A stretch of 64,000 nucleotides of DNA from Alphaproteobacteria bacterium (GTDB lineage Bacteria > Pseudomonadota > Alphaproteobacteria > Sphingomonadales > Emcibacteraceae): contig JAUIDN010000008.1 in NCBI GenBank assembly GCA_030428615.1, positions 1 to 64,000 on the forward strand, read 5' to 3'. The notes under the pieces were generated by a model. That model was not told the origin of the DNA, did not search any database, and was given only the letters and a program-made list of their open reading frames with translations. Below, piece after piece: positions 47,142 through 50,986 of the stretch; position 1 is the first letter of the stretch; the number at the start of each line of letters is the position of its first letter. A program made the translations under genes and the position numbers.

Positions 47142-47218
47142 CGGAATGTAGCGCAGCATGGTAGCGCGCTTCACTGGGGGTGAAGAGGTCGCAGGTTCAA
47201 ATCCTGTCATTCCGACCA
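47142..47218 (+). tRNA. tRNA-Pro (anticodon GGG)
   Basis: The acceptor stem CGGAATG/CATTCCG is fully paired. The D arm GCGC...GCGC, the anticodon stem CTTCA/TGAAG with loop CTGGGGG and the T arm CAGGTTCAAATCCTG fit a proline tRNA. The anticodon GGG is at 47176-47178. The discriminator A at 47215 is followed by an encoded CCA. Confidence 0.97.
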
Positions 47219-47271: not shown

Positions 47272-47751
47272 TTATGATAATTGTTTCTTAATCAAATGAT
47301 CTAGTGACAGGAACCCCGGGCCACGCGACATAATGAAAAGCATAGCGACTGCCCACACGGCATGATCCGGCCAACTCGCAGGATAGACAAATATCTGTAT
47401 GACAAGTGTCATGACAAGAAGTGCGCCAGCGCTTAATCTTGTTGCTAAACCGATCACGAGGAGAAGCGAAAAAAAATGTTCCGCAAAGGTTGCGATATAG
47501 GCTGCTGCCTTATAGGGAATGAGCGGTAGATTATATTCTGTTTCAAATAGCAGGAATGTAAACTCATTTATGTCCCAACCATTTACTTTTGTCTGACCGG
47601 ACCGCCAGAAAATACCCGCGACAGCAAATCTCGCAAGAAGGGAAATAGCCCAGTCTGGAATAAGCGCAAATTTACCCCAGAGGGCTTTATTGCAGGATTG
47701 CATCATTGTTAGTGGTGTTGATTGTTTTTCTTCTTCAATTATTATCGGCAT
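47272..47751 (-). CDS. DoxX-family membrane protein (bufferin operon)
   Basis: This 159-residue protein has four membrane helices and the DoxX pattern ISLLARFAVAGIFWRSGQTKV, followed by YIATFAEHFFSLLLVIGLATRLSAG. DoxX proteins often close DUF2282-DUF692-DUF2063 operons, where they may serve in redox or quinone-linked steps; the exact role is not known. It overlaps the DUF2063 gene by 17 bp and is the last gene before the strong terminator. Confidence 0.88.
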   Translation of the reverse strand: MPIIIEEEKQSTPLTMMQSCNKALWGKFALIPDWAISLLARFAVAGIFWRSGQTKVNGWDINEFTFLLFETEYNLPLIPYKAAAYIATFAEHFFSLLLVIGLATRLSAGALLVMTLVIQIFVYPASWPDHAVWAVAMLFIMSRGPGFLSLDHLIKKQLS

Positions 47752-48562
47752 GATTATTTCCTTCGTTATGATATTTATTTTGGGGGATAATTCGGTCGTT
47801 TAATTGAAACTCGGAGAAAATACCGATTGAAAGCAATTCGACAACCGCCCTGACACAATCGAATTCCGGCGCAATTGCCTCGGTCAGGGCGCAAGCTTGT
47901 TCAATATTTTTTCCACTTTCCAGCAATCGTAGAAACTTAATAAACTCAATGTTAACCGAGTGAATATTCACGCGTTCGTCAGGACGAATAATCAGAATAT
48001 TTGACCCGGTATTGAAATTGATTTCTACAGTTTCGCCGTCGGGTTGGTTATATTGCCAGATATCAAAAACAGGATATTCAGAAGTGGCAGTCTGGTATGA
48101 CGGATGAAGGATTAAACAGGCGGAGCCGAAAATATCTTCGGGAATTTGTGACAAATCCTGCGCATTGATAGGGGGAATATTTTCTGCATGATAAGAAACA
48201 TTCATCGCCCATTCCAACCTGGCGACATCTCCAAGATATGGAATTGACTTTGCAGCTTCGAAGCCGTCGAGAAAATCTGCAAACCCGCTGCCATATTCGG
48301 ACAAGGGGCCTGGTAAAGGGGGTGATTTTTGAATAAATTCGCGCGCGGCATAGTCAAAGAAATCCGACCCCACCAGTTTTTGTATTACGGGATATGTTTT
48401 TGAAAGGGCTTCTGTCAGGGTAATAAACGTATTATTTTTGTATATCGCCAGTCGTTGTGTGACACTAAGGCCATCCGGGATAATCAATTTTTCCGTGGCT
48501 TTTACATCTCCCTCAAAATGTGAAGCAAAAATAGCTGATTGATGTGTGAAAAGATCAGGCAA
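47735..48562 (-). CDS. bufC: DUF2063 / BufC-like partner protein
   Basis: This 275-residue protein has the DUF2063 N-terminal domain (QSAIFASHFEGDVKATEKLI, VTQRLAIYKNNTFITLTEAL) that binds the leader peptide or precursor in bufferin systems. The second half is variable (YQTATSEYPVFDIWQYNQ). It acts with the DUF692 enzyme in modifying the precursor. It overlaps the DUF692 gene by 8 bp, which favours complex formation. Confidence 0.88.
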   Translation of the reverse strand: MPDLFTHQSAIFASHFEGDVKATEKLIIPDGLSVTQRLAIYKNNTFITLTEALSKTYPVIQKLVGSDFFDYAAREFIQKSPPLPGPLSEYGSGFADFLDGFEAAKSIPYLGDVARLEWAMNVSYHAENIPPINAQDLSQIPEDIFGSACLILHPSYQTATSEYPVFDIWQYNQPDGETVEINFNTGSNILIIRPDERVNIHSVNIEFIKFLRLLESGKNIEQACALTEAIAPEFDCVRAVVELLSIGIFSEFQLNDRIIPQNKYHNEGNNHADNN

Positions 48563-49439
48563 GGCGCATATCTCCTTCTTCTAAGCGGGTTAGAATGCTG
48601 TTCGCTTTATCGGCTTCCGCTTTTAAAATATCGAATGCAGGGAGGCGGGTGTCCCATTCTATTAAGCTCGGAACCGCTCCAAAGTGCTTTAATGCCGTCT
48701 CGTAGATGTCCCAGACAGCTTCGGACACGCGAGAACCATGGTCATCTATTAAAATTTCCTGTCCATCCACTTTATTGACATGATGACCGGCCAGGTGAAT
48801 TTCCTGTACGAGCTGTGGATCGATCCCGTTAATCCAATCTTCAATATTTGTCTTATGGTTTTTTCCATTAACGTAAAGGTTGTTCACATCGACCAAAAGC
48901 CCACAACCGCTTTTTCTGGCAATTTCATTAAAGAATTCATGCTCGGGGATGGTGCTTTCAACAAATTGTAAATAAGTTGACGGATTTTCGATCAAAATTT
49001 GCCTGTTCAGAAAATTCTGGGTTTGGTTGACATGGTCAATCACCATTCTCAGGGCTTCTTCCGTATAGGGTAGGGGCAGCAGATCATTAAAATATGTTTG
49101 CTCAAAAACGCTCCAGGATAGATGTTCGGAAACAAGGGATGGTTCGTAGCGATTAATCAGTTTTTTTGTGCGTTCCAGGATCGATAAATTAAGAGGGCCG
49201 CCGGAGCCGATGGATAAACTGACACCATGAAAAGAAAGACAGTAGTCGTTCCGGATATCGGTTAGCCTCTTGTGATGTGGTCCACCATCGGACATATAAT
49301 TTTCTGTATGGACTTCAAACCAGAGTGGCTTTGGTTTGTTTTTTAAAATGTCTTTAAAATGCTCAGACTTAAGTCCGATCCCGGCAACAGCCGGGATCGG
49401 GGTAAGATCGAAGACACGTGGGGGAACATTTATTGTCAT
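48555..49439 (-). CDS. bufB: DUF692 / MNIO enzyme (BufB-like)
   Basis: This 294-residue TIM-barrel protein of the DUF692 family (multinuclear non-heme iron oxygenase) has metal-ligand-type segments: FEVHTENYMSD, LSFHGVSLSIGS, LVSEHLSWSVF, LLVDVNNLYVNGKNH, EIHLAGHHV, LIDDHGSRV and SLIEWDT. Family members (MbnB, TglH, ChrH, BufB) modify cysteines of short precursors, for example to oxazolone or thiooxazole groups. Here the likely substrate is the DUF2282 protein encoded 17 bp upstream. Confidence 0.93.
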   Translation of the reverse strand: MTINVPPRVFDLTPIPAVAGIGLKSEHFKDILKNKPKPLWFEVHTENYMSDGGPHHKRLTDIRNDYCLSFHGVSLSIGSGGPLNLSILERTKKLINRYEPSLVSEHLSWSVFEQTYFNDLLPLPYTEEALRMVIDHVNQTQNFLNRQILIENPSTYLQFVESTIPEHEFFNEIARKSGCGLLVDVNNLYVNGKNHKTNIEDWINGIDPQLVQEIHLAGHHVNKVDGQEILIDDHGSRVSEAVWDIYETALKHFGAVPSLIEWDTRLPAFDILKAEADKANSILTRLEEGDMRLA

Positions 49440-49456: not shown

Positions 49457-49723
49457 CTATTTAACTTTGCCGCCGGCAATTTTTGTGCAGGTACCGGCAG
49501 GAACCATGATGAATGCATCAGGTTGGTGATCAACTTTAGACGTTCCTGCACATGAAGACGTTGCTGTTTGGCAATCATTCTTTCCCGCAGCGGCAATGCC
49601 ATAACATTTTTCTGCTTTAGCGCCCTGGGCCGCTACAGGTGTTGTGAGTGCCGCAGCAGAAATGGCCACGGCCATTGCAGAGCCGAGAAGAAATGAAGGT
49701 TTCGCAAGTGATTTTTTATTCAT
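49457..49723 (-). CDS. bufA: DUF2282 precursor (bufferin, BufA1-like)
   Basis: This 88-residue protein has a long signal peptide (about residues 10-32, ending VAAQ) and a core with four Cys in [22 protein letters not shown] and AGTCTKI. This spacing is that of BufA1-type DUF2282 proteins, which are exported, modified RiPP precursors that bind copper. It is the first gene of the operon and lies about 75 bp after the predicted ECF promoter on this strand. A weak AGGA-type site precedes the ATG. Confidence 0.93.
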
Positions 49724-49805
49724 GATAAAATTTCCTTTATTTTGTTTGAATAACTCTGACGGATAACCGTCGCGCTTGCCGCAAATTGAATGCGGATACC
49801 TTAAA

Positions 49806-49831
49806 GACGTGGTGTGTTTGGGAATGTTACA
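49806..49831 (-). promoter_or_regulatory. Predicted ECF-sigma promoter of the bufferin operon
   Basis: On the minus strand, TGTAAC (49831-49826) is followed after exactly 16 bases by CGTC (49809-49806) and then TTTA. This fits the GTAAC-type -35 and CGTC -10 seen for ECF sigma factors. It would start transcription about 75 bases upstream of the DUF2282 ATG. The same layout occurs on the plus strand 8 bp away. Confidence 0.6.
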
Positions 49832-49839
49832 TTTTTCTT

Positions 49840-49865
49840 TGTAACGTTTTTGTGATTACAGCGTC
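49840..49865 (+). promoter_or_regulatory. Predicted ECF-sigma promoter toward the sigma-factor gene
   Basis: TGTAAC (49840-49845), a 16-base spacer and CGTC (49862-49865), followed by ATTA, match the minus-strand element base for base in layout. Transcription would start near 49872 and give a leader of about 200 bases before the sigma gene, which suggests autoregulation. Confidence 0.6.
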
Positions 49866-49890
49866 ATTAGTATACCCGCAGCGTTTGTGA

Positions 49891-49955
49891 CAGCGGTAGA
49901 GGCATTCATATTCACGTTCTCCTGGCTATCCTCCAGGTCCTCGCTTCTACCGCTG
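49891..49955 (+). ncRNA. Putative hairpin in the sigma-gene leader
   Basis: CAGCGGTAGAGGC (49891-49903) pairs with GCTTCTACCGCTG (49943-49955) over 13 bp with one G-U pair on the plus strand; on the minus strand the same position would be an A-C mismatch. A nested CCTGG/CCAGG stem (49921-49925 and 49933-49937) lies inside. It starts about 20 bases after the predicted transcript start. The class is not recognised; a regulatory leader or small RNA is possible. Confidence 0.4.
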
Positions 49956-50053
49956 GAGCAAATCAGATTGCTAATCGTTATTGGACAGGTGATTAATACC
50001 TTGTCATGTAAATGTCATTTGTTAGGATGAAAAAGGAGCCGAAATAATAGTCG

Positions 50054-50710: not shown

Positions 50711-50986
50711 ATGTATAGAAGATGTGATGAAGTTTCGGATAAAATTTCAGAAATTATTGACCGTGAAGCGGCGTTTCTCACGCGATTTCGCTTTTATACA
50801 CATCTGATGGTGTGTTCAAAATGCCGGGATTATTTTAATCAGTTTAAATTGCTGAAATCTGCCAGCCGAGAGCCGAACCCCGGTGAATTGCCCGCTGATT
50901 TTGACAAGGTGATGGGTTTTGTTATGGATGAAGTGGAAAAAGAACTAGATAAAAACAGGGTGGATGATACGCTTCAGGGAAGCTAA
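50711..50986 (+). CDS. Small zinc-finger putative anti-sigma factor
   Basis: This 91-residue protein has the zf-HC2-type arrangement with an early Cys (MYRRCDEV) and then THLMVCSKCRDYFNQF, i.e. H-x3-C-x2-C. It has no membrane helix, so it is likely a cytoplasmic zinc-binding anti-sigma factor like RsrA or ChrR-N. It begins six bases after the sigma gene stop and overlaps the convergent YjbR gene by 4 bp. The residues suit release by metal or thiol stress, which is an inference. Confidence 0.8.
   Translation: MYRRCDEVSDKISEIIDREAAFLTRFRFYTHLMVCSKCRDYFNQFKLLKSASREPNPGELPADFDKVMGFVMDEVEKELDKNRVDDTLQGS

Follow-up and report, generated by a model that had tools for sequence, protein, structure and literature searches.

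Between a bufferin operon and an ECF sigma factor gene, in a 64 kb stretch of DNA that was analysed as a whole (hereafter, the window), a short intergenic region carries what looks like the same promoter on each strand. This arrangement raises the question of whether a single sigma factor drives both transcription units, its own included.

Genes and promoter sites of the divergent locus

The locus comprises the following features, in window coordinates:

47142-47218, tRNA-Pro, bounding the bufferin operon on its distal side
47272..47751, minus strand, DoxX family membrane protein (PF07681, family match), last gene of the bufferin operon
47735..48562, minus strand, bufC, DUF2063 partner protein (PF09836, family match)
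48555..49439, minus strand, bufB, MNIO bufferin maturase (NF050167 above the NCBIfam cut-off; PF05114)
49457..49723, minus strand, bufA, DUF2282 (PF10048) bufferin precursor whose N-terminus resembles a signal peptide and whose core contains four Cys
49802..49831, minus strand, predicted ECF-type promoter serving the bufferin operon, with the -35 box TGTAAC at 49826-49831 and the -10 box CGTCTTTA at 49802-49809 (motif match, and the same site in genomes G006, G008 and G004)
49840..49869, plus strand, predicted ECF-type promoter serving the sigma/anti-sigma operon, with the -35 box TGTAAC at 49840-49845 and the -10 box CGTCATTA at 49862-49869 (motif match, and the same site in 6/6 locus carriers)
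49883..49963, plus strand, conserved leader RNA hairpin of 81 nt: P1 of 6 bp, a 2x2 internal loop, P2 of 12-13 bp and an inner P3 hairpin with a pyrimidine-rich loop
50090..50704, plus strand, ECF sigma factor, 204 aa (Sigma70_r2, Sigma70_r4_2)
50711..50986, plus strand, 91-aa anti-sigma factor, soluble and of the ZAS type (zf-HC2; C5...H31-x3-C35-x2-C38 read from the sequence)

The DUF2282 precursor, MNIO, DUF2063 and DoxX genes form one operon with the content of a Buf1 (DUF2282) cluster. On the opposite side, the sigma factor, with its start set at the ATG common to its relatives (50090), contains Sigma-70 regions 2 and 4 without region 3 and adjoins an anti-sigma factor with the Hx3Cx2C motif, as is characteristic of ECF/ZAS pairs. 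The membrane anti-sigma factor NrsF (PF06532) had no match at the window locus, where the partner is the 91-aa zf-HC2 protein.

The original prediction described TGTAAC-N16-CGTC-N-TTA on both strands with the -35 boxes 8 bp apart, and exactly such a pair, accounting for all matches to this pattern in the window (n = 2), was located at 49802-49831 (minus strand) and 49840-49869 (plus strand), back to back, with 49832-49839 separating the -35 boxes. That the pair is unlikely to arise by chance was borne out by the absence of matches in 100 dinucleotide shuffles, against 2 observed, and by an expected count in the window of 0.03 for the shorter pattern TGTAAC-N16-CGTC. The assignment of one copy to the DUF2282 operon and of the other to the sigma gene holds by family matches as well, one site facing bufA-bufB-bufC-doxX and the other facing the genes for the ECF sigma and its soluble ZAS anti-sigma factor.

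A genome-wide search for the regulon, which had been proposed along with the prediction, was run with GTAAC-N16-CGTC and yielded 7 matches (40 for the reversed control pattern), five of them inside predicted coding frames, leaving the twin sites as the sole intergenic strict matches. A wider regulon with the strict consensus is thus rejected for this genome and, because no further intergenic match exists, the regulon of the sigma factor may, judging from the sequence, be limited to the twin-promoter locus itself.

The same genome encodes a second MNIO locus (G000:C1:232797-233573, within L112, G000:C1:228000-237803), which includes a small Cys-rich, precursor-like ORF with CKGQ repeats; no ECF promoter of the TGTAAC-N16-CGTC type was found upstream of it.

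Conservation of the sites and the genes they face

Comparison of the intergenic region covered the six genomes in the genus that carry the locus, the window's genome included. The sigma orthologue is 65-71% identical in four congeners; in the fifth (G005, locus L060), the gene is cut after about 65-66 codons by a rearrangement, and the promoter and the leader hairpin are intact. A scan of named genomes for the sigma factor found only a distant Shewanella sigma. TGTAAC-N16-CGTC is preserved upstream of the sigma gene in 6/6 carriers, whereas the bufferin operon has been lost from four, two of which have also lost the bufA-side copy: in G009 and G005, the operon and its site are both gone, the sigma-side site is kept and a tRNA lies directly upstream. 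The bufA-side copy occurs in both genomes that keep the operon (the window's and G006) and in two that lack it (G008 and G004). Loss of the boxes from relatives with both units, named beforehand as the observation that would speak against a shared promoter, was not seen; only two genomes, the window's and G006, keep both units, and G006, the sole such relative, keeps both boxes.

The N16 spacer is exact in all 10 sites of the six genomes, with the consensus TGTAAC-N16-CGTCWTTA, and most of the 10, on both sides, are accompanied by a stretch resembling TAnCCGC where transcription is expected to begin, which in the window is near 49797 (minus strand) and 49873 (plus strand); on the bufA side, the stretch is exact in 2/4 sites and has one change in a third. 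In G008 (L045) and G004 (L046), where the bufferin operon is deleted and the bufA-side promoter kept, a 21-aa bufB remnant was detected by tblastn and a similar bufB start remnant was seen by eye, respectively. This bufB start remnant contains an inverted repeat, and the promoter might now produce a short RNA in these two genomes.

Beyond the genus, in a sister genus of the same family (g3), sigma orthologues about 55-61% identical to that of the window, together with ZAS anti-sigma genes, are found inside an arsenic-methylation operon that includes genes for arsenite methyltransferase-like (arsM), ArsC-like, permease, MerA-like, TIGR04282/TIGR04283 glycosyltransferase and radical SAM proteins. 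TGTAAC-N16-CGTCA is present upstream of arsM at the operon head in all four contigs that reach the head. Because the same site heads this unrelated operon, the promoter appears to travel with the sigma factor while the controlled genes differ; the predicted output is swapped between copper-bufferin and arsenic-methylation genes, with sigma, anti-sigma and promoter unchanged. The comparison thereby yields a promoter consensus, clean and open to testing, for an ECF sigma factor whose output differs between related genera. No close arsM of the g3 kind was found in the window's genome, and a literature search on ECF control of arsenosugar genes returned nothing relevant. In the g3 loci L053, L054, L056 and L057, the surroundings of the sigma/ZAS pair, with TGTAAC-N16-CGTC at the head, resemble an arsenic-methylation/arsenosugar operon, and across L048-L057 a conserved TTTGTCACAAAAAAGTTATGGGAC stretch lies immediately upstream of the sigma gene, within the operon.

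These comparisons bear on two other readings of the twin sites. In three genomes, the -35 boxes are perfect inverted copies of each other across gaps of 8, 8 and 7 bp, so that GTTACA-N8-TGTAAC could serve a dimeric repressor or activator as one palindromic operator, with the CGTC boxes incidental. In G006, however, a gap of about 50 bp separates the half-sites, which argues for two independent promoters rather than one operator; the 8-bp spacing of the original prediction thus recurs, to within 7-8 bp, in three genomes but is not essential. Furthermore, the single half-site left in G009 and G005 retains its exact 16-nt distance to CGTC, the site on the arsM side occurs without a mirror copy, and no regulator of the kind required is noted beside the locus. 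Given the variable spacing and the single sites, we reject the palindromic operator as highly improbable. The other reading, that the twin promoters are read, wholly or in part, by another ECF sigma of the cell, draws on the five hits that the sigma sequence gives in the window's own genome, that is, four besides this sigma, at lower similarity, and on the activity that the Caulobacter sigF promoter retains without sigma-F (PMC3511200). We consider this reading unlikely, given that the site follows the orthologues of this particular sigma into the unrelated g3 operon and that the rest of the genome shows no enrichment of GTAAC-N16-CGTC.

The probable leader of the sigma-side transcript

The leader hairpin is predicted to begin about 10 nt past the expected start of the sigma transcript. 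Its fold has a z-score of -4.72, and none of 200 shuffles was as stable. Across the six genomes, 98.1% of the cells in the two outer helices are paired, against 35-59% in slid controls; in these helices, five pairs show two-sided change, a number reached by 1 of 500 shuffles, and the covariation score was reached by no shuffle. With the inner hairpin included by hand alignment, 137/144 cells pair, a count biased towards pairing because the alignment was fitted to the structure. At the DNA level, conservation of the hairpin equals that of the sigma gene (70% vs 69% identity), and the spacer behind the hairpin is not conserved (25% identity).

A covariance model of the hairpin had one match per carrier, only at the locus, in 6/6 carriers, 74-128 nt upstream of the sigma start, with no match in congeners without the sigma and no convincing match among 398 genomes sampled from the order and 385 from the class. 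Weak matches at L107, L109, L110, L111 and L117 were dismissed as resembling chance or low-complexity hits, the first four being within predicted frames. An Rfam search over the hairpin in the window and the five relatives identified no family. A conserved small ORF in the leader was rejected because stops, and length changes other than multiples of three, interrupt the candidate frame as read by eye.

Descriptions of ECF sigma circuits usually stay with proteins, in terms of anti-sigma control, so that a checkpoint acting through RNA in the feedback loop would genuinely extend them, as an RNA layer on the ECF positive-feedback switch. We tentatively propose that the leader could represent a new, genus-restricted class of structured RNA that limits sigma output, either by sensing a signal or by folding against the ribosome-binding region. 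As a suggestive hint, complementarity between the inner loop and the purine-rich spacer upstream of the sigma gene is greater than in shuffles (p about 0.002, a post hoc value summed over six genomes in which the positions are inconsistent). A literature search on ECF leader RNAs found nothing relevant.

Alternatively, the hairpin could form the 5' portion of a distinct trans-acting small RNA whose expression depends on the sigma factor. ECF-driven small RNAs are known, for example under Neisseria sigma-E (PMC3240639), and both the persistence of hairpin and promoter next to the truncated sigma gene of G005 (cut after about 66 codons) and the unconserved spacer are compatible with such an RNA. 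No terminator-like site was found downstream of the hairpin in the window, however, and the hairpin always occurs at the same short range upstream of the sigma start and nowhere else; we regard a trans-acting RNA as less likely than a cis-acting leader.

The proposed circuit and its known counterparts

As far as can be told from sequence, the locus is very probably an autoregulated ECF sigma/anti-sigma divergon, in which one sigma drives both its own operon and the bufferin operon. We favour this model because all 10 congener sites share TGTAAC-N16-CGTC and G006 retains the operon with both sites; with the same -35/-10 pair heading the g3 operon that bears an orthologous sigma, the claim that one sigma serves both units, itself included, remains the best reading. 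Against the model, the bufA-side site persists in G008 and G004 although the operon is gone, so this site is not strictly tied to the bufferin genes.

At rest, the sigma factor would be held by its ZAS anti-sigma partner, and metal or thiol stress, the signal that we infer, would loosen the anti-sigma factor and free the sigma. The freed sigma would then bind TGTAAC-N16-CGTCWTTA on both strands, transcribing its own operon in a positive feedback and also bufA-bufB-bufC-doxX, the latter presumably yielding a periplasmic copper-binding bufferin in this organism. The hairpin leader of the sigma-side transcript would probably tune sigma/anti-sigma translation or message stability.

The layout of sigma and bufferin units seen here was already known elsewhere (PMC3511200, PMC10304878), and sigma factors and NrsF were also noted in Buf1 clusters by a survey of MNIO clusters (PMC12452194). 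In Caulobacter crescentus (sigF-nrsF/CC3254-CC3257), an ECF sigma and its anti-sigma factor likewise adjoin a DUF2282/MNIO/DUF2063/DoxX operon, and experiments show sigma-F driving both the DUF2282 operon and its own from near-identical GTAACC-N16-CGAA promoters, a positive autoregulation shared with our model (PMC3511200). The window sites match this promoter in the -35 element (GTAAC) and the N16 spacer but have CGTC rather than CGAA as the -10; the Caulobacter anti-sigma factor NrsF is, moreover, a six-pass membrane protein, and the accessible text of that source reports no leader RNA of the window kind for sigF-nrsF (PMC3511200). Within the family of the window's genome, G017 (L081) has bufABC-doxX divergent from an ECF sigma gene with twin GTAACC-N16-CGTA promoters, but differs in its sigma, its -10 and its NrsF (PF06532) anti-sigma factor.

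In Neisseria meningitidis (rpoE-mseR, NMB2140-2145), sigma-E and a soluble ZAS anti-sigma factor, with Cys4, His30, Cys34 and Cys37 in place of C5, H31, C35 and C38 of the window protein, autoregulate an operon with DoxX and bufferin-like genes from a CGTC-type -10 (CGTCTAAH); the autoregulation and the very small regulon both liken it to the window locus (PMC2893595). It differs in being one co-directional operon rather than a divergon, in the -35 consensus and spacer as reported, in the precursor type and in having MsrA/MsrB as a target (PMC2893595). The bufferin (gig) operon of Cupriavidus metallidurans, gigPABT, is divergent from the ECF sigma/anti-sigma genes rpoQ-rsqA, as in the window, and is copper-induced, but RsqA is predicted to be membrane-bound, rpoQ itself is read by the housekeeping sigma and control of gig by RpoQ is unproven (PMC10304878); the last two points count against our model.

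Caulobacter sigF-nrsF, Cupriavidus rpoQ-rsqA/gig and Neisseria sigE-mseR are thus precedents for the layout, of which the window locus is a ZAS-type variant; new here are the ZAS anti-sigma factor in a divergent bufferin locus, the output switch between genera and the 81-nt covarying leader hairpin.
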